DNA of 64,000 nt from Clostridia bacterium (GTDB lineage Bacteria; Bacillota; Clostridia; Oscillospirales; Acutalibacteraceae). Below the pieces are notes generated by a model. The model saw only the letters and a list, made by a program, of their open reading frames with translations. It was not told the origin of the DNA and ran no database searches. This document shows, piece after piece, positions 15,698 to 44,994 of this stretch. The stretch covers positions 62,001 to 126,000 of the forward strand of contig JAFRUA010000076.1 in the NCBI GenBank assembly GCA_017434855.1, written 5' to 3'. The translations under genes and the position numbers were made by a program. Positions within the stretch are counted from its first letter, which is position 1, and every line of letters begins with the position of its first letter.

Positions 15698-18085
15698 ATG
15701 GCATCATCCAAAAAGAAACAGAATCCGCCGCCGGCGTCTTCGGTTCCGGCTGTCAAGAAAAAAAGAAAACGCAAAAAGAAAAAGCACCCCATTCTGTTTA
15801 CGATCTTTTTGATTTTCATCACCCTGTTTATGTCTGCGCTGATGACGATCGTCATCGTGGGCGGCAGCGTCTATTCCTATGTCAATCATTTTGTCAACGG
15901 CGACAAAGACATCGACCTGGATTTTTACAAAAGCGAACAGTCCCAGACCTCCATCCTTTATGCCTATGATGAAGACGGAACGCCGATCGAGCAGCAGCGT
16001 CTGCACGGGGAAGAAAACCGCATCTGGATCGATTATAAGGATATCCCCGACAATCTGATCTGGGCCTTTGTGTGTCTGGAGGACAAGCGTTTCTTTGAGC
16101 ATGAGGGCGTGGACTGGGTCCGCACCGTGGGCGTGTTTGTCAACCCGAGCTACAGCGGTCAGGGCGGCTCCACCATCACGCAGCAGCTGATCAAAAACCT
16201 CACCGACGAAAAGGAAGCAACCTATATCCGTAAGTTCAACGAGATCCTGCGCGCGCTGAATCTTGAAAAATACTATTCCAAAGAAGAAATCCTTGAAGCA
16301 TATCTCAACACGGTGTATCTGGGGTCCGGCTGCTATGGCATCCGCACCGCCGCCGAAAAGTATTTTGACAAAGAAGTCAAGGACCTCAAGCTGGTGGAAT
16401 GCGCCACGCTGGCCGCAATCACCAAGGCGCCGTATACGCTGAACCCCGTCGTCAACTATGACAAGTGTATGGAGCGGCGCAACCTTTGCCTGCGCTATAT
16501 GAAAGAAGAGGGCAAGATCACCGAAGAGCGCTATCAAAAGGCGATTGCCCAAAAGGTCAAAATCGTCAACAAGGTCACCAAGAACGAACAAAATCAGGAA
16601 GAGGTCAAGCTTCTGTCCTGGTATGAAGAATATGTGATCGATCAGGTCATTGCCGATCTGCAGGAGCGTTACGGCTACGACTATACCGAAGCGTGGCGCA
16701 AGGTCTATTACGGCGGACTGAAAATCTATTCCGCGGTTGATCTTTCGCTGCAGGCGCAGCTGGAAGAGATCTATAAGAACCGCTCGTTCGTCGATACGCT
16801 CCATCGCTACGGCTACTATGAGCATACCGATAAAAACGGCAAGCTGCCGCAATCGTCCATGACGATCATGGATTATCAGGGCCGCATTCTGGCGCTGGTG
16901 GGCGGCACCGGTGAAAAGACGGCCAACCGCGCCTATAACCGCGCAACGGACAAGCGTGCCAAACGGCAGCCCGGTTCGTCCATCAAGCCCGTGGCGGTCT
17001 ATGCGCCCGCAATGGACCTGGGCATGATCACGCCGGCCTCTCCGATCCTTGAAAAAGCCATGTATATCGATGGCCGGCTCTGGCCGCGGAACTTCAACGG
17101 CGACCACGGCTCCGGCGGCTACATCAGCGTGCAGGAAGCGCTGGTCCGCTCCCTCAACACCGTTCCCGTCCGCATTCTTGAAGAGATGCTGGGGCACGAC
17201 AACGCGATGGATTACTGCAACAACCACTTCCATCTGAACCTGACCGAAAAAGACAAGATTCCCTCCCTGGCCGTCGGCGGCACCAACACCGGCGTCACCA
17301 CGCTGGAAATGGCCGCCGCGTTCGCGACCTTCGGCAACGGCGGAAAATACTACAAGCCCTACAGTTACTACAAAGTGCTGGACCGCAACGGCAAGGCGAT
17401 CCTTGACAACACCCACAACAAAGCGGAACAAGCGCTGAAGCTGGAAACGGCAAACTCCTGCCTGTCGATGATGACCAAGGCCGTAACACAGTCCAACGGC
17501 ACCGGTTACGGTTCCAAGATCAACCGGTTCCAGACGTTTGCCAAAACCGGTACCACGTCTGACAACTGCGACAAATGGTACTGCGGCGGCACACCGCACT
17601 ATGTGACCGCCGTCTGGTACGGCTATGACTATCGCGCTGACCTGTGGACCCATGCGGAAAACCCGGCGAAACGAATCTTCCAGTATATCATCGGAAAATT
17701 CAGCGAAGGTCTGCCGGATAAAACCTTTGCCGACGTGATCGTGGAATGCGGCGGCAAGGAATCTGACGCCAACGCCATCCTTGCAACCAGCTCTTACCGG
17801 TCCTACACGACCACCAAGCGCGACGATGAAGATGAAGATACGACCGAAAAGACCACGGAAGAGCCGACCGAATCAACGTCGGAAGCGCCGACCGAATCAA
17901 CATCGGAAGAACCGACCGAAACCACCGAACCGACGACGGAACCAACCACCGAGCCGACGACGGAACCCACAACGGAACCGACCACCGAGCCGACCAGTGA
18001 ACGCCCGACAGAGCAGCGGCCTGACCCGACAAGCTCTGCGCCGGCGCCGTCCTCTGACGACCCGACGATCGACGCGGCCGCATAG
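15698..18085 (+). CDS. Class A penicillin-binding protein (PBP1A-like)
   Basis: A bifunctional peptidoglycan glycosyltransferase/transpeptidase of 795 residues. It has a very basic cytoplasmic N-terminus (about 19-30), one membrane anchor (about 31-55), a GT51 domain with EDKRFFEHEG (128-137) and GGSTITQQLIKN, and a transpeptidase domain. The active-site SxxK is S427-S-I-K430, followed by SLN and KTGTTSD. After the catalytic domain comes a low-complexity tail of about 90 residues built from Thr-Glu-Pro repeats, which is extracellular and acidic. An AAAGGAG ribosome-binding site precedes the start by 8 bases. It lies 11 bases upstream of ruvX. Confidence 0.95.
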   Translation: MASSKKKQNPPPASSVPAVKKKRKRKKKKHPILFTIFLIFITLFMSALMTIVIVGGSVYSYVNHFVNGDKDIDLDFYKSEQSQTSILYAYDEDGTPIEQQRLHGEENRIWIDYKDIPDNLIWAFVCLEDKRFFEHEGVDWVRTVGVFVNPSYSGQGGSTITQQLIKNLTDEKEATYIRKFNEILRALNLEKYYSKEEILEAYLNTVYLGSGCYGIRTAAEKYFDKEVKDLKLVECATLAAITKAPYTLNPVVNYDKCMERRNLCLRYMKEEGKITEERYQKAIAQKVKIVNKVTKNEQNQEEVKLLSWYEEYVIDQVIADLQERYGYDYTEAWRKVYYGGLKIYSAVDLSLQAQLEEIYKNRSFVDTLHRYGYYEHTDKNGKLPQSSMTIMDYQGRILALVGGTGEKTANRAYNRATDKRAKRQPGSSIKPVAVYAPAMDLGMITPASPILEKAMYIDGRLWPRNFNGDHGSGGYISVQEALVRSLNTVPVRILEEMLGHDNAMDYCNNHFHLNLTEKDKIPSLAVGGTNTGVTTLEMAAAFATFGNGGKYYKPYSYYKVLDRNGKAILDNTHNKAEQALKLETANSCLSMMTKAVTQSNGTGYGSKINRFQTFAKTGTTSDNCDKWYCGGTPHYVTAVWYGYDYRADLWTHAENPAKRIFQYIIGKFSEGLPDKTFADVIVECGGKESDANAILATSSYRSYTTTKRDDEDEDTTEKTTEEPTESTSEAPTESTSEEPTETTEPTTEPTTEPTTEPTTEPTTEPTSERPTEQRPDPTSSAPAPSSDDPTIDAAA

Positions 18086-33680: not shown

Positions 33681-34115
33681 TTATTCACCGTAGGTATCGA
33701 TCAAATGGTCCATCGCCATCAGGTACCCGTCGAAGCCGTAGCCGGCAAAGCGCCGCTCGGCATACAGGCCGACATAGGAGATCTGACGGAACGTTTCGCG
33801 CGCGTCCACGTCGCTGATGTGGACCTCCACCGTCGGGATACCCACCGCCTTGAGTGCATCCAGAATCGCGATGCTGGTGTGGGTATAGGCGCCGGGGTTG
33901 ATGACGATGCCGTCCTCTGCCTGATACGCCGCCTGAATGCGGTCCACGATGGCGCCCTCGTGGTTGGACTGAAACAGCGCCACCTCGACGCCGCGGCTCT
34001 GCGCATGTTCACGGATGCGCGCGCACAGGTCGTCATAAGTGCTTTGCCCGTAAATGTGCGGCTCCCGGATGCCGAGCATGTTGAGGTTCGGCCCGTTGAT
34101 GACTAACAAACGCAT
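33681..34115 (-). CDS. aroQ: Type II 3-dehydroquinate dehydratase
   Basis: AroQ dehydrates 3-dehydroquinate to 3-dehydroshikimate, step 3 of the shikimate pathway. The 144-residue protein is a typical type II enzyme with INGPNLNMLG (carrying the catalytic-loop Asn and preceding the Arg/Tyr lid), QSNHEGAIVD, NPGAYTHTS and EVHISD. Its start overlaps the aroE/aroK stop by 13 bases. It is the last gene of the aromatic operon and ends just before a terminator. Confidence 0.97.
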   Translation of the reverse strand: MRLLVINGPNLNMLGIREPHIYGQSTYDDLCARIREHAQSRGVEVALFQSNHEGAIVDRIQAAYQAEDGIVINPGAYTHTSIAILDALKAVGIPTVEVHISDVDARETFRQISYVGLYAERRFAGYGFDGYLMAMDHLIDTYGE

Positions 34116-35326
34116 GAAATCACCCTTTCAACCGTTGTTTCTATGGAATCGTCCACATCAACAATGACGTCTGACGCGGCTTCATAGACGCCTTTTCGCT
34201 GTGAATACATCGCCTTCAGCGCCGCAGCGTCAACAGAAAGCGGACGCCCGTTCCGTGCAAGTTGTTCCAGCGGCCGCCGCAGCCAGACCACAAACCCGTT
34301 TTGCCGCAGGGCGTCGCGGTTTTCCGCACGCATCATGCAGCCGCCGCCGGTCGCGATCACCTGTCCCAGCTCTGCGCCAAGCTGCCGCGCCGCCGCCGTT
34401 TCTTTGTTGCGGAAAGCTGCCTCGCCGTCCTCGGCAAAAATGGCGGGAATGCTGCGCCCGTCCGTCGCTTCCACCAGCACGTCGGTGTCAACAGCCGGGC
34501 GGTCCAGACGCTTGGCAAGCGCCGCGGCAACGGTGGACTTTCCGCAGCCCGGCATGCCGATCAGGACGATGTTGCGCCGGCCCATCGTCACGGCGCGTTC
34601 GATCTCGCCGATCTTTGTCTCGTCAATTATCGTATCAAGAAAGCGTTCCGCCGACCGCAGCGCCTGCGCCGCCAGCATGGAAAGGCCGTTGGCATACGGA
34701 ATGCCCAGCGCCTCCGCCTGCAGGAGCAGTGCAGTTTTCAGCGGATTATAGATCAGGTCCAGCACGCATTCCAGCGACCGGAACGGCGTCAGGTCCAGCG
34801 GCGAAACGCCACACTTCGGGTACATCCCGACGGGCGTGGTATTGACCAGAATCTGCGCGTCCGCGTGGTCAAACACGTTATTATAATTCACGTTTCCGCT
34901 GCGGCTGACGACGATAACCTCACATGCACCGGCGGCTTTGGTGACCACCTGCACTGTGCGGCTGGCCCCGCCGCTGCCGAGGATCAGGACCTTTTTGTTT
35001 TTGAACTCGGCGCCCGCCTGCTTTGCCATGTAAGAAAAACCGAAGGCGTCGGTATTGTCGCCGAAGAGCGTGCCGTCTGCGCGGCGCACCACGGTATTGA
35101 CGCTGCCGATGGCTTTTGCCGTGTCGCTCAGTTCGTCGCAGGCGTGAAATGCGTGGACCTTATACGGGATCGTCACATTGAACGCACGGATGCTTTCATC
35201 CGCAAAGAATGCCGGCAGCTCCGCTTCTTCGCGTTCAAACAATTCGTACCTGTACGGCGCAAGGTACCCGTGGATCAGCGGCGACAGCGAGTGCGCCAGC
35301 TTGCGCCCCAAAAGACCGGTTCGCAT
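34103..35326 (-). CDS. aroE-aroK: Shikimate dehydrogenase-shikimate kinase fusion
   Basis: A 407-residue bifunctional protein for steps 4 and 5 of the shikimate pathway. Residues about 1-245 are AroE, with SLSPLIHG, NVTIPYKV and GDNTDAFGF, and the NADP loop LGSGGASRT. Residues about 248-407 are AroK, with the P-loop IGMPGCGKST and later FRNKE and ATGGG. The two domains are in one uninterrupted frame with only a short link. The start at 35326 is six bases from GGAGGA; the ATG at 35332 overlaps the ribosome-binding site and the pheA stop. Fusion would place both activities in one polypeptide. Confidence 0.96.
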   Translation of the reverse strand: MRTGLLGRKLAHSLSPLIHGYLAPYRYELFEREEAELPAFFADESIRAFNVTIPYKVHAFHACDELSDTAKAIGSVNTVVRRADGTLFGDNTDAFGFSYMAKQAGAEFKNKKVLILGSGGASRTVQVVTKAAGACEVIVVSRSGNVNYNNVFDHADAQILVNTTPVGMYPKCGVSPLDLTPFRSLECVLDLIYNPLKTALLLQAEALGIPYANGLSMLAAQALRSAERFLDTIIDETKIGEIERAVTMGRRNIVLIGMPGCGKSTVAAALAKRLDRPAVDTDVLVEATDGRSIPAIFAEDGEAAFRNKETAAARQLGAELGQVIATGGGCMMRAENRDALRQNGFVVWLRRPLEQLARNGRPLSVDAAALKAMYSQRKGVYEAASDVIVDVDDSIETTVERVISCVC

Positions 35327-35328
35327 CG

Positions 35329-36465
35329 TCATTCCTCCGTATAACTGCCAAGATAGGTGAACGCCTCACAGTCGGCCTCCAGCTCCGCGATCAGCGCTTT
35401 CAGCGCCGGGGAATACACGCTTTCTTCCACGTCAAAATAAAACATGAACTGAAAATCGGTGCCGGCAACCGGGCGGCTTTCCAGCTTGGTCAGGTTGAGG
35501 TCCAGCGCGGCAAAGCGCGCGATCATGTGATAGAGTGCGCCGGGGTGGTTGCCCAGCTTGAGCATGATGCTCGTCTTTTTCGCGCCGGGATAGATCTCCG
35601 GCGTCTTTGAAATGCAGATGAAGCGCGTATAGTTGTTTTGCATGTTCTGGATGCCGGTCTTTGCCGTCTGCAAGCCATAGAGCGGCGCACAGTCCGGCGA
35701 CCCGATGGCCGCAATGTCGGTGCGGTCGCTTTGCGCCACCAGCTTTGCGGCCTCTGCGGTGTTTTTGCAGATGTGCCATTTTGCGCCGAGCGATTCAATG
35801 AAGCTGCTGCACTGGCGCAGCGCCTGCTCATGCGAATAGACCTCGCGAATTTCAGACAGCTCTGTACCCGGGCGCACCAGCAGCGCGTGCGGAATGAACA
35901 GCCGCAGACTGTGGGTGATATAGAAATGATATTTTCCCATCAGGTCATAGACGGCGTTGACGGAACCGGCGGTGCTGTTTTCCACCGGCAGCACGCCGTA
36001 GCGGCAGTCGCCGCGCTCCACCGCCTTGAACACGTCCTCAAACTGTGAAAGATAGACGATCGTGGGGCGCTTGAACATTTTGTCGCAGGCATGCTGGGAA
36101 TATGCGCCCTCCACACCCTGGCAGGCAACCACGGCGCGGTCCGGCCGCATCTTCGGCGTATTTGCCGTGACGTCGTCAATCAGCCGGCAAAGCGCGCTGG
36201 GCGTGCCGATGCACTGCCGCTGATAGGAACGGCTCAGATCAAACAGCGACTGAAACAGCACGCCGGTATGGGTGCTGAATTGCGGTTCGGCCATTTCAGT
36301 GACCTGATTGAGAATCTCACGCTCGCGGGCGGAGTCAAACACCGGCAGATGGTGCGCCTGTTTGTACCGGGCGATCTTGCCGCAGATCTCCATGCGCTCC
36401 TGAAACAGCGACGCCATGGTCCGATTGATGTCGTCCAGTTGACGGCGATAGTCCTGAATATCCAT
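35329..36465 (-). CDS. pheA: Chorismate mutase-prephenate dehydratase
   Basis: A bifunctional P-protein of 378 residues that commits chorismate to phenylalanine. Residues about 1-85 are an AroQ-type chorismate mutase (DIQDYRRQLDDINRTMASLFQERM). About 105-285 are prephenate dehydratase, with GVEGAYSQHA and GVLPVENSTAGSV. About 295-375 form an ACT domain with GALY and ESRP, the motifs that bind phenylalanine in feedback-inhibited enzymes. The start at 36465 has AAAGGAG upstream. Feedback by Phe is therefore likely, on top of the leader-based control proposed for the operon. Confidence 0.96.
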   Translation of the reverse strand: MDIQDYRRQLDDINRTMASLFQERMEICGKIARYKQAHHLPVFDSAREREILNQVTEMAEPQFSTHTGVLFQSLFDLSRSYQRQCIGTPSALCRLIDDVTANTPKMRPDRAVVACQGVEGAYSQHACDKMFKRPTIVYLSQFEDVFKAVERGDCRYGVLPVENSTAGSVNAVYDLMGKYHFYITHSLRLFIPHALLVRPGTELSEIREVYSHEQALRQCSSFIESLGAKWHICKNTAEAAKLVAQSDRTDIAAIGSPDCAPLYGLQTAKTGIQNMQNNYTRFICISKTPEIYPGAKKTSIMLKLGNHPGALYHMIARFAALDLNLTKLESRPVAGTDFQFMFYFDVEESVYSPALKALIAELEADCEAFTYLGSYTEE

Positions 36466-36479
36466 AAAGGCTCCTTTGA

Positions 36480-37550
36480 TTACAAAAGATTCATCAGTGC
36501 AATGGCCGCCGCAGCCTCCACGCACGGCACGGCGCGCGGCACAATGCACGGGTCATGACGGCCTTCCACGGTCAGCACCGTGTTTTCACCGGTTTGCAGG
36601 TTCACGGTGCGCTGCGGCTGCCCGATGGAGGGCGTCGGCTTGAACGCCGCCGTGAACAGAATCGGCATGCCGCTGGTCAGGCCGCCCAGCACGCCGCCGT
36701 GGCGGTTGCTTTCGGTTCTGATTTCGCCGTCCTCAAAACAAAACGGGTCGTTGTTTTCGCTGCCGCGCAGATTCACGCAGTCAAACCCATTGCCGAATGC
36801 CACAGCCTTGACGCCGGGGATTGAAAACACCAGGTGACTGATCACGCTTTCCACGCTGTCAAAGATCGGGCCGCCCACGCCGCCCGGAACCCCGAGCACG
36901 GCGCATTCCACCACGCCGCCGACGGAATCCGCCTGCAGACGCGCCTGTTCAATCACGCGGCACATCTCTTCGCCCGCGCTGTCGTTTTGTACGGGGAACG
37001 CCTTTGCTTTGATTCCACAAAGTGTCTGCCGATCCAGCAAAATGCCGTCATACGGCATATCCTGCACAAAGCCGATGCGCCGGATGTGCGCACCGACTGT
37101 GACGCCCTTTGCTTCCAAAAGCTGCATGGCGAGCGCCCCGGCGAAGCAGAGCGGCGCCGTCATCCGGCCTGAAAAATTGCCGCCGCCGCGAATGTCGTGC
37201 GCTGCGCCGTACTTCAAAAAGGCGGCGTAGTCCGCATGCGACGGGCGCGGGCAGGCGCGCAGGGCGTCGTAATCTTTGGAATGCGCGTCACCGTTCAAGA
37301 TCAGCGCGCACACCGGGGCGCCGCAGGTCACGCCGTCCACCACGCCGCTGACGATCTGCGGCCGGTCAGATTCTTTGCGCTGCGTGGCAAAGGCCGCGTT
37401 TCCGGGCGCGCGCCGCTGCAAAAAGGCGGCGATCTGCGCTTCGTCCAGCCGGACGCCGGCCGGAACGCCGTCGATCACGACGCCGATGGCTTCGGAATGC
37501 GATTGACCAAACACGGTCACTTTGAATTTGTCACCAAAACTACAAGACAT
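36480..37550 (-). CDS. aroC: Chorismate synthase
   Basis: AroC converts 5-enolpyruvylshikimate-3-phosphate to chorismate using reduced FMN. The 356-residue protein starts with FGQSHSEAIGVVIDG and has the GGGNFSGRMTAPL form of the FMN/substrate loop, with a C-terminal AFKPTPSIG region. GGAGGACAGG precedes the ATG. It overlaps the end of aroA by 11 bases and is followed by pheA after 14 bases. Confidence 0.97.
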   Translation of the reverse strand: MSCSFGDKFKVTVFGQSHSEAIGVVIDGVPAGVRLDEAQIAAFLQRRAPGNAAFATQRKESDRPQIVSGVVDGVTCGAPVCALILNGDAHSKDYDALRACPRPSHADYAAFLKYGAAHDIRGGGNFSGRMTAPLCFAGALAMQLLEAKGVTVGAHIRRIGFVQDMPYDGILLDRQTLCGIKAKAFPVQNDSAGEEMCRVIEQARLQADSVGGVVECAVLGVPGGVGGPIFDSVESVISHLVFSIPGVKAVAFGNGFDCVNLRGSENNDPFCFEDGEIRTESNRHGGVLGGLTSGMPILFTAAFKPTPSIGQPQRTVNLQTGENTVLTVEGRHDPCIVPRAVPCVEAAAAIALMNLL

Positions 37551-38772
37551 GAACCTGTCCTCCGCATTTCTGATAGTCTGTAAAAAATGAAGGATACGAT
37601 TTATTGACGGCCTCTGCGCCGCAGATCGTCACCGGCCCGGCGCAGCGCTGCGCGGCCACGGCGGCGGCCATCACGATGCGGTGATCCCCCGCCCCGTCCA
37701 CGGTTCCGCCGGCAAGCGTGGGCCGCCCGTCGATCAGCAGCCCGTCGTCGGTTTCCTGCACCGTACCGCCCAGGGCGGTCAGCATGGCGGCGGTGGCGGC
37801 GATGCGGTCACTCTCTTTCAGCCGCAGCCGCGCCGCGCCAACGATGCGCGTGCGCCCTGTTGCTGCGGCGGCAAGGACCGCCAGCACGGGCACCAGGTCC
37901 GGAATGTCGGCGGCGTTGATCTCGCAGCCGTGCAGACCGCCGCAATCGGCACGCACTGCGCCATCCGCAGCGTCCACCGTTGCGCCGAAGGCGCGCAGGC
38001 AATCCAGCACGCGGCGGTCGCCCTGCACCGACGTCATGTCCAGCCCGCGTACCGCGACGCCGGCACACAGCCAGAACGCGGCGTTGGACCAGTCGCCCTC
38101 CACAATGAAGTTGCCATGGCGGTACCGCGCAGCCGGAATGTCAAAAGAATTTGCTTTTTCGGGAATCATCACGCCGAAGCGTGAGAGCGCCTGCATTGTC
38201 AAATCAACATATGGCCGCGACTCCAGCGAACCCTGCACGCGCAGCAGGCTTTCACCGCCGCACAGCGGCAGCGCCAGCAGCAGCCCCGTGATAAACTGGG
38301 AGCTGATATTTCCCGGCACCGTAAATACGCCGGGCCGCAGCTTTCCTGAAATGCGAAGCGGAACCCCGTCAGCGACCGCCACGCCATGGCTGCGCAGCGC
38401 GTCGAGCAAAGGCTGCATCGGGCGCTGTGGCAGCCGCCCGCGGCCCGTAAACGACGCTTTGATCCCAAGCGCCGCGGCGATCGGTACCAGAAAGCGCAGC
38501 GTTGACCCGCTTTCGCCGCAATCAAAGTCTGCCTCTTCAGGGTACTGCGCCGGGGGCGTCACGGTCAGGCAATCACCGTCCGCTGTGATCGTGGCGCCAA
38601 GGGCACAGAGGCAACGGAGCGTTGCGTGGATGTCTTCCGACGTCGCGTTCAGGCTCAGGACGCTCGGTCCGTCTGCCAGCGCGGCGCAGATCAGCATGCG
38701 GTGCGCGGCCGATTTTGACGCGATCGCATCAACGGTCCAGGACAGCGGCGCGTTCGTCAAAGTCACGGTCAT
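37540..38772 (-). CDS. aroA: 3-phosphoshikimate 1-carboxyvinyltransferase (EPSP synthase)
   Basis: AroA adds enolpyruvate from PEP to shikimate-3-phosphate. The 410-residue protein has SKSAAHRML at the N-terminus, CGESGSTLRFLVP and a later RLKESDRI, all standard. The ATG at 38772 overlaps the aroB stop by 4 bases, with AAGGAG about 11 bases upstream; longer in-frame starts lie inside aroB. The order aroB-aroA-aroC within the operon is common in Firmicutes. Confidence 0.97.
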   Translation of the reverse strand: MTVTLTNAPLSWTVDAIASKSAAHRMLICAALADGPSVLSLNATSEDIHATLRCLCALGATITADGDCLTVTPPAQYPEEADFDCGESGSTLRFLVPIAAALGIKASFTGRGRLPQRPMQPLLDALRSHGVAVADGVPLRISGKLRPGVFTVPGNISSQFITGLLLALPLCGGESLLRVQGSLESRPYVDLTMQALSRFGVMIPEKANSFDIPAARYRHGNFIVEGDWSNAAFWLCAGVAVRGLDMTSVQGDRRVLDCLRAFGATVDAADGAVRADCGGLHGCEINAADIPDLVPVLAVLAAAATGRTRIVGAARLRLKESDRIAATAAMLTALGGTVQETDDGLLIDGRPTLAGGTVDGAGDHRIVMAAAVAAQRCAGPVTICGAEAVNKSYPSFFTDYQKCGGQVHVL

Positions 38773-39815
38773 GCCGAAAGCAGCTCCTTCCATCTGGAAA
38801 TCGGCATGCGCTCGATCAAGCAGTCGCCGATCTTTGACGGAAGAACCAGCGCGATGCTGTTGCCGGCACATTTTTTATCGCCGGTGGTCAACGGAAAGAG
38901 CGCTTTGTTCTCATACGGACAAGCCGTTGGCAGCGCGTTCGCCTCCAACGCGGCGGCAATGCGCCCGGCGCAGGGCTCGTTTGCATAACCAAAGGCTTCC
39001 GCGATCCGCGCGATGCGGACCATGCCCATGGCGACCGCACGGCCGTGGCTGATTTGATAGTTGCTCTTTGTCTCAATGGCATGGGCCAGCGTGTGCCCGA
39101 AGTTGAGCAGCGCACGCTTGCCGGTGTCGAATTCATCTGCGGCAACCACGTCGCGCTTGATCTCAACGCAGCGTGTCACCACGTCCTCAAGATCATCTGG
39201 CGCCACGCCGTCTTTCACACGGTCAAACAGTGCGGCGTCCGCGATCACGCCGTATTTGACGACCTCTGCCATGCCGTCGGCAAAGTCCTCCGGCGCCAGG
39301 GTTTTGAGGTATCCGAGGTCGCAGAGAACCAGTGCCGGCTGGCGAAACACGCCGCACAGGTTTTTGCCGCCGTCCAGATTGACGGCTGTCTTGCCGCCGA
39401 CGGAAGAATCCACCATCGACAGCAGCGTGGTCGGCATCTGCACCAGCCCCATGCCGCGCATAAACAGTGCAGAGGCCAGGCCCGTCAGGTCGCCGGTCAC
39501 GCCGCCGCCGAGCGCAACCAGCACGTCCTTGCGCGTGAAGTGTTCCTGCGCAAGGAATTCCAGCAGTGACAGCAGCACGGCTGGATTTTTTGACCGCTCC
39601 CCGTGCGGAAAAATATAGTGCGCCGTGTCGATGCCGGCAGTTTTTGCCGCCGTTTCCAGCGCCGAAAGATGCAGCGGCGCCACGCGGTCTTCACTGACAA
39701 AGCAGACGCGGCCGCCGGGATAGAGCGTTTTCAGCCGCGCCGGCAGCAATGCGGACACACCGCCGCCGATGACGACGTCATAAGTATTTGATGCATGAAC
39801 AGTTACTGTTTTCAT
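38769..39815 (-). CDS. aroB: 3-dehydroquinate synthase
   Basis: AroB makes 3-dehydroquinate from DAHP with NAD and a divalent metal, step 2 of the shikimate pathway. The 348-residue protein shows GGGVTGDLTG, PTTLLSMVDSSVGGKTAVN and the metal-ligand NFGHTLAHAIE. AAGGGGAG precedes the ATG. It sits 9 bases after tyrA. DAHP synthase, the first enzyme of the pathway, is not encoded in this window. Confidence 0.97.
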   Translation of the reverse strand: MKTVTVHASNTYDVVIGGGVSALLPARLKTLYPGGRVCFVSEDRVAPLHLSALETAAKTAGIDTAHYIFPHGERSKNPAVLLSLLEFLAQEHFTRKDVLVALGGGVTGDLTGLASALFMRGMGLVQMPTTLLSMVDSSVGGKTAVNLDGGKNLCGVFRQPALVLCDLGYLKTLAPEDFADGMAEVVKYGVIADAALFDRVKDGVAPDDLEDVVTRCVEIKRDVVAADEFDTGKRALLNFGHTLAHAIETKSNYQISHGRAVAMGMVRIARIAEAFGYANEPCAGRIAAALEANALPTACPYENKALFPLTTGDKKCAGNSIALVLPSKIGDCLIERMPISRWKELLSA

Positions 39816-39824
39816 ATGCTCCCC

Positions 39825-40655
39825 TTATCCGTTGACTTTCTTGGTGGCGCGGCCCTCTTCCAGAAGCGCGGACAGCGCCGCGGCGTCATTTGCCTTGATG
39901 GCGGCGCTGTAGGCCTGCAGGTTTTCGATCAGGGTGTCGATCTCGTCCGCAAGGTAATCCGCGTTTTCCAGAAACAGCTCCGTCCACATCGGAACGTTGA
40001 GCTTTGCCACACGGGTCATATCCTTATAGCTGCCGGCGGAAAACCCGCGCTGTTTTTTGGCGCTGGGACTTTTGACATAGGCGTTCGACACCACATGCGC
40101 CAGTTGAGATGTGAAGGCGATCACGCGGTCGTGCTCCTGCGGGGTGGTCAGCGTCAGCTTTTCAAACCCGATGGCAGAAAACAGCGCGTTGAGCTTGTCA
40201 AGCAGCTTGATGTCATAGGTCCCGTCAGAGGCAAGGATCATGGATGCGCCCTTGAACAGCGTGGTCCGCGCATGGCTGTAGCCCCAGAACTGGGTGCCGG
40301 CCATCGGGTGCCCGCCGATGAAGATGAAGCCGCGTTCCTCTGCAATGGGCGTCACCGCGTCCCACACATAGCGCTTGACGCCGCAGCAGTCGATCACAAC
40401 GCAGTCCTCGCTGATGCAGTCCGCGTGCGCCTGAATATATGCCACCGTTGCCTGCGGATACAGGCAAAGAAACAGCACCTCACACCGGGGAAGCGATTCG
40501 TCCGTCAGCGGGCCGTCCATCTTTCCGGTCTCGGCCGCGTTTTCCATCGCCTGGGGCGCTTTGTCATACGCCAGCACCGTGTGATCTGTATTCTCTTTGA
40601 TCGCGCCGGCCAGCGACCCGCCGATCAAGCCCAATCCTACAACGCCGATTGTCAT
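39825..40655 (-). CDS. tyrA: Prephenate dehydrogenase
   Basis: TyrA oxidatively decarboxylates prephenate to 4-hydroxyphenylpyruvate on the way to tyrosine. The 276-residue protein begins TIGVVGLGLIGGSLA (NAD(P)-binding loop) and contains GGHPMAGTQFWGYSHA, the conserved substrate region. No ACT domain is present, so feedback must act elsewhere. The ATG at 40655 was preferred because GGAG lies about 10 bases away; an ATG at 40664 is only one base from it. It is the first structural gene of the aromatic operon, about 100 bases after the leader ORF. Confidence 0.94.
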   Translation of the reverse strand: MTIGVVGLGLIGGSLAGAIKENTDHTVLAYDKAPQAMENAAETGKMDGPLTDESLPRCEVLFLCLYPQATVAYIQAHADCISEDCVVIDCCGVKRYVWDAVTPIAEERGFIFIGGHPMAGTQFWGYSHARTTLFKGASMILASDGTYDIKLLDKLNALFSAIGFEKLTLTTPQEHDRVIAFTSQLAHVVSNAYVKSPSAKKQRGFSAGSYKDMTRVAKLNVPMWTELFLENADYLADEIDTLIENLQAYSAAIKANDAAALSALLEEGRATKKVNG

Positions 40656-40687
40656 GTTCCTCATTCTCCGTTTCCTGAATATATGAA

Positions 40688-40714
40688 ATCCGCAGCGGAA
40701 GCTTCCCTGCGGAT
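40688..40714 (-). promoter_or_regulatory. Attenuator-like hairpin between the leader ORF and tyrA
   Basis: ATCCGCAG and CTGCGGAT (40688-40695 and 40707-40714) pair perfectly around CGGAAGCTTCC, itself partly palindromic. On the transcript the CGCAG arm could instead pair with an upstream CTGCG near 40735, giving two mutually exclusive structures. The T run after the stem is weak (TTTCATAT), so it could act on transcription or on translation. Confidence 0.5.
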
Positions 40715-40752
40715 CATCACTCCTGTCTTTTCAGCGCAGCACACCCGCCCTA

Positions 40753-40812
40753 TTAACTTTTGTTAATAAAGCGAACGTAAAAGTATGCAGTTGCAAAACC
40801 GGTACTCAGCAT
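40753..40812 (-). CDS. Putative Phe/Tyr-rich leader peptide of the aromatic operon
   Basis: A 19-codon frame encodes MLSTGFATAYFYVRFINKS, with three Phe and two Tyr in ten consecutive residues (6-15) and no Trp. It starts about 25 bases after the predicted transcription start of the tyrA operon, and AAAAGGA lies about 11 bases before the ATG. An in-frame ATG at 40824 gives a 23-residue version. The stop codon lies inside a small hairpin (TATTAAC/GTTAATA, 40751-40768). The operon makes Phe and Tyr through PheA and TyrA, which matches the codon content. By analogy with pheL-type leaders, ribosome stalling at Phe/Tyr codons could choose between the downstream hairpins. This is an inference; no experimental case is known to me for this exact leader. 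Confidence 0.6.
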   Translation of the reverse strand: MLSTGFATAYFYVRFINKS

Positions 40813-40843
40813 GATGTGCGCCATCCTTTTGTGTGTTGTTTTT

Positions 40844-40872
40844 ATCTTATCACAATGCGCGGCGTTTGTCAA
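40844..40872 (-). promoter_or_regulatory. Sigma-A promoter of the aromatic amino-acid operon
   Basis: On the minus strand a perfect TTGACA (40872-40867), a 17-base spacer and TAAGAT (40849-40844) give a predicted start near 40837, just before the leader ORF. Confidence 0.85.
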
Positions 40873-40917: not shown

Positions 40918-42162
40918 CTACTTTTGAACGCCGGGAAAATCGCCGTCCTCCGGCGCGTGCAGCTTCGGATGCCGCACGCCCAGCGTCGCGCCGCGGATCA
41001 GCGTTCCTTCGCCGAATTTGAAGCGAATCGCGTCCATGGCGGCGTCCACCCTTTGCTGTTTTTGATTTGCGGCGGGCCTGCCGCCAAACAGTGTCAACTG
41101 TTCTTCGCCGCGGTCGGTCAGCTCAGACAGCGCAACACCGATCAGCCGCAGCGGGGTTCCGGCCCAATGCGCACGCAAAAGCTGCCGCGTCGTCTGATAG
41201 ATTTCTTTCGTCACATCTGTCGGTACGTCCAGCTTGGTCTGGTGCGACTTACTTTGAAAGCGCGTGTCGCGCAGCACGATGGCAATATTGCGGGCACATT
41301 TTGCGTCGTCGCGCATTCTGGCCGCCGCAGCGTCAGACAGCGACAGCAGCAGTGCGTCCGCCGTTTCAAAATCGGTGACGTCGTCCTCCACCGTGATCGA
41401 ATGGCTGTAGCTTTTTGCCGCAGGCGACGCCGTCACCACCGGGGAAGGGTCGATTCCGTTGGCGTAAAAATGAAGCTGTTCGCTCATCTTTTTGCCCACC
41501 TGCGCGCGCAGCAGCGACAGATCGGCCCGCGCCAGATCGCCGACGGTACGGATGGAAAAGCGCTCCAGCTTTTCTGCCGTGGACCGCCCCAGAAACAGCA
41601 GGTCGCGCACCGGCAGCGGCCACAGCTTGGTTTCAACCTCTTCGCTGAACAGGGTGTGGACCTTGTCCGGCTTTTCAAAGTCGCTGGCCATCTTTGCCAG
41701 CAGCTTGTTGGACCCGACGCCGACATTGACCGTGAAGCCCAGCTCGTTTTTGATGCGGTCCTTCAGCTTGTATGCAGCGTCAAGGATGTTCGGATACAGC
41801 CGCTCCATGCCGCTCATATCAAGAAAGCATTCGTCGATGGAAAACGATTCGCGCAGCGGAGAAAAATCGTCGCAGATCGCCTTGAACGCCCGGGACGCCG
41901 CAGCATACAGCCGAAAGCTGGGCGGGGCGACCGCCAGACCCGGGCACTTGCGCAGCGCCAGACCGATCGGCTCGCCGGTCTGGATGCCGTATTTTTTGGC
42001 CGGAATGGACTTTGCCAGCACCACGCTGGTGCGCTTGCCGGGGCTGCCGCTGATGACGGCCGGCACGGTGCGCAGGTCGCTTTCCCCGTTTTTCAGGCGC
42101 TCCACGGACGTCCATGACAAAAATGCGCTGTTGACGTCAATATGAAAGATCACGCGCCGCAT
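40918..42162 (-). CDS. dinB: Y-family DNA polymerase IV
   Basis: DinB is an error-prone DNA polymerase that bypasses lesions. The 414-residue protein has the catalytic FHIDVNSAFLSW (first metal Asp) and SIDECFLDMSG (second carboxylate pair), the helix-hairpin-helix segment (about 185-235) and a little-finger domain. AAAGGAGGTG precedes the ATG. No SOS box was identified between it and the neighbouring genes. It appears to be a single gene upstream of the aromatic operon on the same strand. Confidence 0.93.
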   Translation of the reverse strand: MRRVIFHIDVNSAFLSWTSVERLKNGESDLRTVPAVISGSPGKRTSVVLAKSIPAKKYGIQTGEPIGLALRKCPGLAVAPPSFRLYAAASRAFKAICDDFSPLRESFSIDECFLDMSGMERLYPNILDAAYKLKDRIKNELGFTVNVGVGSNKLLAKMASDFEKPDKVHTLFSEEVETKLWPLPVRDLLFLGRSTAEKLERFSIRTVGDLARADLSLLRAQVGKKMSEQLHFYANGIDPSPVVTASPAAKSYSHSITVEDDVTDFETADALLLSLSDAAAARMRDDAKCARNIAIVLRDTRFQSKSHQTKLDVPTDVTKEIYQTTRQLLRAHWAGTPLRLIGVALSELTDRGEEQLTLFGGRPAANQKQQRVDAAMDAIRFKFGEGTLIRGATLGVRHPKLHAPEDGDFPGVQK

Positions 42163-42241: not shown

Positions 42242-44461
42242 TTAATCGTACACGACCATCGGGTCACCGAAATCATAATAAAGGATTGCGTTTTCCGGGG
42301 CTTCTGACAGCGTCAGGCTTCCGGTCTCCTCCTGCGTAGAACAGTCAAAGGCTTTGACGTCATAATCCGTCATGGTGAACAACTGATCGCCAATCATAAC
42401 GCCGCGGAAGAAACTGCAATACCGTGCCCCCGTCCACTGCGACCTTGCATCCGTTTCGCTGTGCAGGTACGTTTTCTCATCTGTAAAGGCACCGTTCCCG
42501 ACGCGAACCGTCTGATAAACATGACGTGTTCCAAAATAATCCCAGTTTTCCTCGTCCCAAAGCTCATAAGTCAGCGGAAAGCCGAGCGTCGCCGTCTCTT
42601 CGTCAAAAATCACAGATTTCGGGTCATCCTGTGCGCTGCTGTAAGCATCTTCCAACACCAGCTTGTCAACCTCTTTCGGCGCCGCCGGGTCGCTGACGTC
42701 AAAGAGCGAAAGCTTCACCGTGCTGTAGTCCGCGCCGTCGTCGTCACCGCCGTAGCCGATGCCGACAAGGTAACCGTTGCCCACCGGATGCAGGTACGAC
42801 GAAAAGCCGGGCAATTTCACTTCACCCTTCACGGTCGGATGCTTCGGGTCGCTCAGGTCGATGACAAACAGCGGGTCGGTGTTTTCAAACGTCACGACAT
42901 AGGCCGTATCGCCGAAGAAGCGCGTGCTTTCCACCGCTTCGTTGTTTGCAAGGTCTTCCAGCTTGCCGATCACCTTCAGGTCGCGGTCCAGCACATACAG
43001 GCTGCTGACGGCAATGGTTCGATAGAAATCCCCATCCTCGTCCATTTCTTCACGGCGATTGGTCGTCGTGATGCGGAAGGTGTCGCCGGACTGGTCCATG
43101 CTGTACTGGTCGTTCACGCTGCCGGGCACCGAGCCCTTGGCCGCAAGCCGCAAGGTCGTGCCGCTGAACGAAAACGCATACAGGTCTGTGCGGGTGTGGC
43201 CTTCTTCGTCGTCCCAGATATAAGCGGTATCAGCGACATACAGCGTATCCGTCGAGCAGTACAACTGATCGCTGCGCCCCAGCAGGCTGATGCGGCTGGG
43301 CGTGCTGTCCGGCTTTGCGGTATCCCACGCGGTCAGGATCAGATAGTCGGTCGTGTTCTCTTCCGGGTCGCGGATATAGATGTCTTCGCAGGAGATTTTC
43401 TTACCGTTGATCCGGGGCACGCAGGCGTAGTCGATGTCCTTCTCCGCATACACCTGCGGGCTGTAATTGGTCACGGTATACAGCACGTCGCCGACCATGC
43501 GGGTGTTCTGCAAGAACCCGTCCTGCGTCAGGGTGCCGATCTGTTTCGGGTCGGAACGGTCGGTGATGTCAAACAGCTCCGCAACCGACTGCTGCCGAAA
43601 TCTTTGAAAACGATACCTTTTGTAGGGCGCATCCGTCGTTGTAGCCTCTGCCGCGTCATCGGCCGCAGTGGTGTCTGTCGCTTCATCCGGTTCATTTTCA
43701 TCGTCCGCAACCGGCACGTTCACATGCCGCAAAAGAATCAGGCGGTCGCCGCCGACATAAAGATTTTCATAGCCGGAGTTCATGCGATCGGCTTCGTTGT
43801 CCAGCTTCTTTGACCAGACCTCGGTCATGGTTTCGGCGTCCACAATGGTCACAGCCGTACCGCGCGAAAGATACAGATACCGCCCGTCGGTCTTGACAAT
43901 GTCGGCCTCGTCCACGCCGCTGACCTGGGTGTTGGTTTTGCTGTACGACCGCGCACCGGCAAGGTCATCCGTCGCGCCGTTGACGCTTTTTGCGTTGGTC
44001 GTCGGCGCAGCCTCGTCGTAAACAACGCCATAGCCTGCCGCGGAATCGACTGCATAGGTCGGGCCGAAGTTCATGTCCGACGAACGCATCAGCTCGGTGA
44101 AATGCTCGCGCAGCGCTTCGTCGCTTTCAAACTGCGGCAACAGGTCGCTTTTGACGCGTTCAAACACGGCAGCGTCGTCCGCAGCGCCCTCTGTCATCAC
44201 AGTCGGCTTTGACGTGTTCCACTTCGGCGCAACGGCAAAGGCTGTGACAAACACCGCCAGCGCCGCCGCGATCGCCGCAACCCGGGGCCAGCCCTTGCGC
44301 ACCGGACGGCGGTTGTTTTTCTTTGGTTCTGTTTTGACCTGCCGTGCCTTCAGCCGACGCACAACGGCGTCGGGTTCCAGCGCATCCGGCAGCTCAATCT
44401 GCTGTGCGTCAAATGCGTCGCGCAGCACGTCGGGTTCGTTTGGTTCATTTGTTCTTTTCAT
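42242..44461 (-). CDS. Membrane-anchored beta-propeller protein, putative partner of the ECF sigma factor
   Basis: A 739-residue protein. It has a cytoplasmic N-terminus of about 60 residues, one membrane span (about 61-78) and a large extracellular part resembling the secreted beta-propeller (Beta_propel) family; repeated blade-like segments such as DGRYLYLSRGTAVTIVDAETM and LFVIDLSDPKHPTVKGEVKLPGF are visible. An acidic low-complexity insert lies near 270-295. The ATG overlaps the sigma-factor stop by 4 bases, behind GGAGGTG. Co-translation with an ECF sigma factor and the one-span topology suggest an anti-sigma factor or signal sensor, though no known anti-sigma domain is recognised in the short N-terminus. 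Confidence 0.75.
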   Translation of the reverse strand: MKRTNEPNEPDVLRDAFDAQQIELPDALEPDAVVRRLKARQVKTEPKKNNRRPVRKGWPRVAAIAAALAVFVTAFAVAPKWNTSKPTVMTEGAADDAAVFERVKSDLLPQFESDEALREHFTELMRSSDMNFGPTYAVDSAAGYGVVYDEAAPTTNAKSVNGATDDLAGARSYSKTNTQVSGVDEADIVKTDGRYLYLSRGTAVTIVDAETMTEVWSKKLDNEADRMNSGYENLYVGGDRLILLRHVNVPVADDENEPDEATDTTAADDAAEATTTDAPYKRYRFQRFRQQSVAELFDITDRSDPKQIGTLTQDGFLQNTRMVGDVLYTVTNYSPQVYAEKDIDYACVPRINGKKISCEDIYIRDPEENTTDYLILTAWDTAKPDSTPSRISLLGRSDQLYCSTDTLYVADTAYIWDDEEGHTRTDLYAFSFSGTTLRLAAKGSVPGSVNDQYSMDQSGDTFRITTTNRREEMDEDGDFYRTIAVSSLYVLDRDLKVIGKLEDLANNEAVESTRFFGDTAYVVTFENTDPLFVIDLSDPKHPTVKGEVKLPGFSSYLHPVGNGYLVGIGYGGDDDGADYSTVKLSLFDVSDPAAPKEVDKLVLEDAYSSAQDDPKSVIFDEETATLGFPLTYELWDEENWDYFGTRHVYQTVRVGNGAFTDEKTYLHSETDARSQWTGARYCSFFRGVMIGDQLFTMTDYDVKAFDCSTQEETGSLTLSEAPENAILYYDFGDPMVVYD

Positions 44462-44994
44462 GACGGCACCTCCGTGGACAGCATGTCCTGCAATGTTGTT
44501 CTGGCCCGTGACAGACGCACGCGCACCGCGCCGGCTTTGAATTGCAGCAGTTCGCCGATCTCTGCGCTGGTGTAACCGCCGACGTATGACAGCAAAACGA
44601 TCTCGCGGTCCACGTCGTTCAGAGCTTGCAGCGCCGCACACAAATCCATCCCCTCCGCCGCGGGCGGAGCAACGGTCAAAACAGCCTCCTGCGTTTCCAG
44701 CGGCAACCGCTGCAGCGCAGCCGCCTTTTCTTTTTGCTGTTCCCTGCAGCAGTTGCGCAGGATCGAAAACATCCACGCGCGGAAAGACTGCGCCTTGTGA
44801 AGCTGCGCAATGTGCTCAAATGCCGAAAGCACGGCGTCGCTCACGGCGTCTTCGGCACGGGTCGGGTCGCCGGTCTGATAGAGCGCAAAACGATATAAAT
44901 CTGTTGCAAGCGTCGTATACAGTGCGCCAAAGGCGTCGGCGTCGCCCTTTTTTGCCCGCCGGACCAGAGCGGTTTGATTGTTGTCTGAACTCAT
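44458..44994 (-). CDS. ECF-type RNA polymerase sigma factor
   Basis: A 178-residue extracytoplasmic-function sigma factor. Region 2 (about 10-80) holds DLYRFALYQTGDPTRAEDAVSDAVLSAFEHI and FRAWMFSILRNCCREQ. Region 4 (about 115-170) holds LNDVDREIVLLSYVGGYTSAEIGELLQ with its HTH. Regions 1.1 and 3 are absent, as expected. It is followed directly by the beta-propeller membrane protein gene. A promoter-like TGTAAC motif upstream suggests autoregulation. The signal and regulon are unknown. Confidence 0.9.
   Translation of the reverse strand: MSSDNNQTALVRRAKKGDADAFGALYTTLATDLYRFALYQTGDPTRAEDAVSDAVLSAFEHIAQLHKAQSFRAWMFSILRNCCREQQKEKAAALQRLPLETQEAVLTVAPPAAEGMDLCAALQALNDVDREIVLLSYVGGYTSAEIGELLQFKAGAVRVRLSRARTTLQDMLSTEVPS

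Follow-up and report, generated by a model that had tools for sequence, protein, structure and literature searches.

The window, by which we mean the whole stretch of 64,000 nucleotides analysed here, carries on its minus strand a set of aromatic amino acid biosynthesis genes preceded by a short leader region. The leader region comprises the following parts.

40844 to 40872, minus strand: sigma-70-type promoter, TTGACA-N17-TAAGAT, with TG before the -10 element (extended -10); 10 of 12 consensus matches
40821 to 40829, minus strand: candidate Shine-Dalgarno sequence AAAGGATGG of the leader ORF, from the sequence
40753 to 40812, minus strand: leader ORF MLSTGFATAYFYVRFINKS of 19 codons, from the ATG at 40812 to the TAA ending at 40753, from sequence and translation
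40751 to 40768, minus strand: stop-codon hairpin TATTAAC-AAAA-GTTAATA, from the sequence; a block nearly invariant in the genus
40735 to 40739, minus strand: CTGCG, proposed 5' strand of an antiterminator, able to pair with the CGCAG arm, from the sequence
40688 to 40714, minus strand: terminator-like hairpin ATCCGCAG-GGAAGCTTCCG-CTGCGGAT; folded core of -15.3 kcal/mol
40666 to 40676, minus strand: candidate tyrA ribosome-binding region AGGAAACGGAG, not part of the hairpin, from the sequence

An earlier sequence-only reading had described a promoter and a 19-codon ORF with three Phe and two Tyr among residues 6-15 and no Trp, its stop codon lying in a hairpin. All of these parts were present on the minus strand, the control codons being Phe6, Tyr10, Phe11, Tyr12 and Phe15 with Trp absent, and the stop codon falling within the hairpin at 40768-40751. 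One promoter site was counted in the region, compared with a mean of 0.5 in shuffled sequences, and two relatives (L003 and L040) carry a similar promoter at the equivalent position, as judged by eye. The Shine-Dalgarno motif of the relatives' leaders is AGGAG or similar. The terminator-like hairpin has a perfect 8-bp stem, ATCCGCAG/CTGCGGAT, at 40714-40707/40695-40688; it is followed by the tail TTTCATATATT, a weak U-tract, and a distance of 23 nt separates its end from the tyrA ATG. The folding of the window leader surpassed that of 200 out of 200 dinucleotide shuffles (z = -3.64). At least five Phe and Tyr per 12 residues in an ORF preceded by a Shine-Dalgarno motif occurred in 2% of shuffles; for the window copy by itself this codon-run statistic is suggestive, and it is the conservation among relatives that settles that the run exceeds chance. 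An Rfam scan of the window at the gathering threshold returned zero families, T-box included, in agreement with the earlier statement that no T-box is present.

The genes behind the leader are as follows.

39825 to 40664, minus strand: tyrA, prephenate dehydrogenase, the first operon gene in the window (PF02153, PF20463)
38769 to 39815, minus strand: aroB, 3-dehydroquinate synthase (PF01761, PF24621)
37540 to 38871, minus strand: aroA, EPSP synthase (PF00275)
36480 to 37550, minus strand: aroC, chorismate synthase (PF01264)
35329 to 36549, minus strand: pheA, chorismate mutase-prephenate dehydratase (CM-PDT; PF01817, PF00800)
34103 to 35332, minus strand: aroE-aroK fusion, shikimate dehydrogenase-shikimate kinase in one reading frame (PF08501, PF01202)
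33681 to 34115, minus strand: aroQ, type II dehydroquinase (PF01220)

These Pfam assignments agree with the sequence-only reading of an operon with both a Phe branch (pheA) and a Tyr branch (tyrA). Judging from overlap and strand, aroE-aroK and aroQ seem to extend the aromatic operon. Upstream of the leader, the window holds a gene for a Y-family DNA polymerase (IMS; 40918-42162, minus strand) and, further upstream, one for a beta-propeller protein (42242-44776, minus strand). In relatives from the same genus, the reading frame that ends ahead of the leader is, by eye, rubredoxin-like.

Leader and aroF in the genus of the window

When the leader was sought directly upstream of tyrA in many relatives, aroF was found there instead. 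This first search was misleading because aroF, which we take to encode a type-Ibeta DAHP synthase, sits between the leader and tyrA in many of them. Type-Ibeta aroF was found in 8 of 34 genomes of the genus, and a Phe/Tyr leader precedes it in 8 of 8. The sequence-only reading had staked its case on conservation of the ORF and its aromatic codons in close relatives; the ORF, the Phe/Tyr run and the hairpins were kept in all eight aroF-bearing genomes, and the ORF and aromatic codons far beyond them. Its placement of the element ahead of tyrA holds for the window; in relatives, the element stands before aroF, and tyrA comes first in the window operon because aroF is not there. In the nearest relative, G022, whose tyrA is 73% identical, the leader MIAFSGNYAYFYFRFINKS lies ahead of aroF, as does a terminator followed by seven T; the aroF gene of this genome is split across two contigs.

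A block of 21 nt spanning the stop codon has a single occurrence in each of 9 of the 34 genomes, namely the eight with aroF and the window genome. It had no match in the other 25, and a second copy was not found in the window genome, where the match is single. These 25 genomes are without both this aroF and the leader block; 21 of them have only a distant tyrA (25-30% identity), three have none, and G010 has a 57% tyrA fragment at a contig edge. Gene sets vary strongly inside this one genus, partly perhaps through incomplete assemblies.

The window genome, which is 97.9% complete, gave zero matches to type-Ibeta aroF. A PF00793 search of the same genome retrieved one DAHP synthase gene, which is of another type and lies on contig 18.

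Contig C18 of the window genome (G000), 17034 to 17918, minus strand: the other DAHP synthase gene, locus L031 (PF00793)

No Phe/Tyr leader was seen ahead of this gene. The pathway entry enzyme of the window genome may thus be a replacement by a DAHP synthase of another type. Since the aroF leader is conserved in the genus and this aroF is absent here, the window leader corresponds to the aroF leader, now adjoining tyrA, and we infer that aroF was lost in the window lineage.

Distribution of the leader in the order and class

In the order, aroF was found in 254 of 394 genomes. We examined 118 aroF upstream regions, consisting of the 8 genus loci, 30 order loci and 80 more; they were taken from the top of the similarity list and are not a random sample. 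With the window leader, the set comprised 119 regions. Six aroF loci (L010, L011, L012, L013, L020 and L021) were left out of the 118; by eye, five have a leader and L020 does not. A strict rule required an ORF of 8-40 codons, a Shine-Dalgarno-like motif and at least five Phe and Tyr in 12 residues. It was satisfied by 92 of the 118 aroF regions (93 of 119 with the window), compared with 2.06% of shuffles and 3 of 119 antisense strands. Among the 26 regions that failed, 11 reach five or more once the Shine-Dalgarno filter is dropped; they were not counted because the null without this filter is 15%. At a density of at least seven of a given residue pair in 12, Phe and Tyr were found in 71 of 119 regions and nine other pairs in 0 to 2. 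The 93 runs consist of 35% Phe, 28% Tyr and 0.4% Trp, with Leu, Ile and Val at 1.1-1.5% each, and both Phe and Tyr are present in 88 of them. A divergent leader type is seen in part of the window's taxonomic family (L099, L126, L128, L133, L136, L137, L144 and L149); several of these leaders share, by eye, a segment like YPxYFMAWGFxAC ahead of aroF.

Outside the order, the class set held 39 regions from 38 families, among the matches listed; L250, which ends at a contig edge, was omitted. Of these regions, 20 were positive and 19 failed, with a null of 3.2%. A second leader type (FYSFFYFMFWGFYFSAGY and similar) was observed in this set (L253, L255, L262, L265 and L269); several of its members have ACTCATTA-type terminators, and the predicted antiterminator lies 34-56 nt from the last aromatic codon.

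In a collection of named genomes, a motif search placed aroF ahead of tyrA in 48 of 80 tyrA loci, of which 35 scored as leader-positive, a few of them doubtful by eye. These loci overlap with the order and genus set, as exemplified by L151 and G012, which have an identical leader. Oscillibacter valericigenes Sjm18-20 carries MSTFTFAAEYRYFSFTYYFGKAYFGLAENECV ahead of aroF and tyrA, together with a terminator. A second such junction comes from an uncultured member of the Clostridiales (RUG351; L161), in which, as in the window, aroF is missing and a leader with a good terminator immediately precedes tyrA.

Terminators, antiterminator pairing and spacing

A hairpin of -10 kcal/mol or lower followed by a U-tract was found between leader and gene in 91 of the 93 leader-positive regions, including the window, compared with 10 of 186 shuffles at the same cut. 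The terminator score was above zero in 71 of these 91 and below zero in 20. In 54 regions, a paired GCAG lies within the 5' arm of the terminator, and on its outer side the base pairs differ in type between regions (C-G, T-A, G-C and A-T at one position) with pairing retained. Stem pair types were counted by script, MAFFT having put the terminator arms of some rows, including that of the window, out of register.

Sequence near the end of the leader is predicted to pair with the 5' arm and loop of the terminator, forming an antiterminator. This pairing was sought between the ORF, entered at most 75 nt ahead of its last base, and the terminator. Locus by locus, the duplex stood out from shuffles at p ≤ 0.05 in 26 of 91 regions and at p ≤ 0.01 in 11 of 91. 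Native duplexes averaged -12.8 kcal/mol versus -10.5 kcal/mol with swapped partners (85 loci; permutation p = 0.0002, a value that, like the other permutation p-values here, is too favourable because related sequences are not independent). Six doubtful loci (L122, L128, L133, L136, L144 and L145) were dropped from the swapped-partner test and retained in the counts of 93 and 91.

Counting from the first nucleotide of the run's final aromatic codon, the predicted antiterminator starts at a median distance of 20 nt (91 loci). The median absolute deviation of this spacing is 4, versus 17.7 with codon positions permuted among loci (p = 0.0002), and the gap is 10-28 nt in 71 of 91 loci. The median gap is 18 nt in the 30 loci ranking in the top tenth against swapped arms. 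When the longest stack is taken as the reference, the gap has a median of 21 nt and a deviation of 5, and 57 of 91 loci fall within 10-28 nt. Relative to the control codons, the predicted antiterminator is thus fairly fixed in place, whereas the position of the stop codon varies. In two genus relatives, L035 and L037, the best duplex lies upstream of the control codons. The class set was not used to form the spacing rule. Its leaders with at least seven Phe and Tyr (n = 25) all have a predicted terminator, and their gap also has a median of 20 nt, with a wider spread (p = 0.006) and 13 of 25 within 10-28 nt. Among the 12 outside this range, 8 are at 34-56 nt, several being of a visibly different leader type.

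A ribosome whose A site holds a given codon shields about a dozen of the bases that follow. Given this footprint and a gap of about 20 nt, a ribosome stalled on the run would leave just the antiterminator strand free.

Proposed mechanism and alternatives

The earlier proposal of a peptide-based attenuator gains support from the ORFs, terminators, pairing (p = 0.0002) and spacing of the family. We consider it highly probable that the family works by attenuation, and the element is probably a ribosome-mediated transcription attenuator signalled by charged Phe-tRNA and Tyr-tRNA. In this model, RNA polymerase would transcribe the leader while a ribosome translates the 19-codon ORF. When Phe- or Tyr-tRNA is scarce, the ribosome would stall on the Phe/Tyr run, and the RNA beyond its leading edge would pair with the later hairpin, along its 5' arm and loop; this antiterminator pairing would block the terminator, and the aromatic operon would be transcribed. 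When both tRNAs are plentiful, the ribosome would reach the stop codon and cover the antiterminator strand, and the terminator would form. In relatives, the first gene under such control would be aroF, encoding DAHP synthase at the pathway entry. In the window lineage, the inherited attenuator would have tyrA as its immediate downstream neighbour, followed by the remaining operon genes, and its terminator is probably weaker.

The window leader retains a promoter, the ORF, the stop hairpin and complementary terminator arms, and its control-codon half reads AYFYVRFINKS versus AYFYFRFINKS in G022. Its terminator-like hairpin passes the energy cut; its terminator score is -4.5, the 16th lowest of 91. 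The CTGCG and CGCAG sequences named by the sequence-only reading as competing partners are present, but their pairing is not above that of shuffles: the antiterminator stack is 5 bp, with a duplex p of 0.47 versus shuffles and a rank of 0.76 versus swapped arms. This antiterminator is the weakest part of the window case. The gap is 21 nt to the first pair and 31 nt to the longest stack, compared with 24-28 nt and 24-34 nt, respectively, in genus relatives other than L035 and L037. The 31-nt spacing to CTGCG was at one point regarded as unusual, a view that was dropped since it lies within the range of these relatives. Overall, the window leader looks inherited but weakened, with a poor U-tract and a short antiterminator. 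The mechanism of the family is likely; for the window copy, taking the kept elements together with the weak U-tract and antiterminator, we lean only modestly towards a switch that still works.

The window leader could instead be a relic whose U-tract and antiterminator were lost after aroF, leaving a 5' leader that is merely constitutive and an ORF in decay. The low terminator score and weak U-tract, an antiterminator not above chance, a weaker Shine-Dalgarno sequence and fewer Phe/Tyr codons than in G022, and the absence of type-Ibeta aroF from the genome are all compatible with such decay. Yet the ORF is still open and its control-codon half nearly unchanged relative to G022, the 21-nt stop-hairpin block has no mismatch, the terminator arms are fully complementary despite a changed loop, and the spacing of the alternative strand matches that of genus relatives, which makes a relic possible but rather doubtful. 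It is more improbable that the element works at translation, a stalled ribosome or the hairpin altering access to the tyrA start. In favour of this reading, the tyrA ATG follows 23 nt after the hairpin, which has no strong U-tract; against it, the tyrA ribosome-binding sequence AGGAAACGGAG lies outside the hairpin, and most relatives have U-tracts typical of terminators (71 of 91 with scores above zero).

Two further alternatives concern what the codon run is for. A response to Phe alone, with incidental Tyr codons, would parallel the report on AroR of Corynebacterium glutamicum, which according to a review responds to Phe limitation and not to Tyr availability (PMC11802643). This analogy has to be set against the 88 of 93 runs with both residues, the 28% share of Tyr in run positions and an operon that makes Tyr too, and we regard sensing of Phe alone as unlikely. 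Least credible of all is a function of the peptide itself, for instance as a small membrane peptide, with the hairpins acting as an ordinary terminator. The peptides are hydrophobic, but Leu, Ile and Val amount to 1.1-1.5% each in the runs; this near absence points to selection for Phe and Tyr, and a hydrophobic peptide as the product was rejected on the basis of run composition. The predicted antiterminator also holds its spacing to the control codons, whereas the stop codon shifts in position.

In Firmicutes, amino acid genes commonly rely on the T-box riboswitch (RF00230) to sense uncharged tRNA. The T-box was rejected as a candidate here, as there was no Rfam match in the window (gathering threshold) or in 61 relative loci (E-value cut-offs or gathering threshold), which sets these leaders apart from T-box-controlled genes. 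The short motif TGGNACCGC is present in L119, the only such region, which has no Rfam match.

Comparison with known leader peptides

The closest functional match to the clostridial leaders, by analogy, is AroR of C. glutamicum, a Phe-Tyr-Phe leader peptide before the aroF operon at which ribosome stalling enhances transcription (Neshat et al., 2014, as described in PMC11802643). Going by the description in that review, both are Phe/Tyr leaders of operons that include a DAHP synthase gene. AroR is, however, actinobacterial, has a three-residue run whereas the clostridial leaders have 5-10 Phe/Tyr in 12 residues, and is reported, in the same review, to be unaffected by Tyr availability (PMC11802643). 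A survey of Actinobacteria reports that operons for phenylalanine or tyrosine are not preceded by a conserved RNA structure (PMC1262725). Another similar element is uORFC-13-1, described before aroF in Acholeplasma as a likely Phe-coding uORF with a promoter and a terminator, for which attenuation was proposed (PMC8632094). It resembles the clostridial leaders in having a uORF with at least one Phe codon, a promoter and a terminator before aroF, but its 24 representatives come from Acholeplasma and environmental sequences, and the passages describing it mention no Tyr run (PMC8632094). Classical leader-peptide attenuation is described for trp, pheA (PheL) and pheST of Escherichia coli, the latter two being controlled by the availability of Phe-charged tRNA (PMC11802643); going by this description, PheL and the pheST leader differ in responding to Phe alone, in standing before pheA or pheST and in belonging to a proteobacterium. 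In Firmicutes, His leader peptides have been reported before hisS paralogues and his operons (PMC2965389, PMC9413887); these are described as regular leader-peptide attenuators too, but with histidine codons.

In the open-access papers searched, a set with few subscription papers, no description of a clostridial Phe/Tyr leader was found. The kind of mechanism is known; within it, this family of Clostridia seems widespread and not previously reported. We are evenly divided over a broader reading, in which an ancient attenuator found throughout the Clostridia would read Phe and Tyr jointly at the entry to the shikimate pathway, replacing T-boxes, with the antiterminator one fixed ribosome length past the last aromatic codon; loss of aroF would have handed this switch to tyrA, shifting control from the entry to the later steps, and L161 would suggest a like handover.

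If these leaders act as proposed, many Clostridia would govern aromatic amino acid synthesis to a large extent through a leader peptide rather than a T-box or a repressor, and the family may have escaped notice since each copy is short and varied. Such leaders would offer a direct and testable way into the responses of gut and rumen bacteria to the supply of Phe and Tyr. They would also form a large natural set for the study of leader-peptide evolution, with 5-10 aromatic codons, a near-constant spacing and a free stop position. Within this set, the window and L161 would be two candidate cases of a regulator that outlived its usual first target gene.
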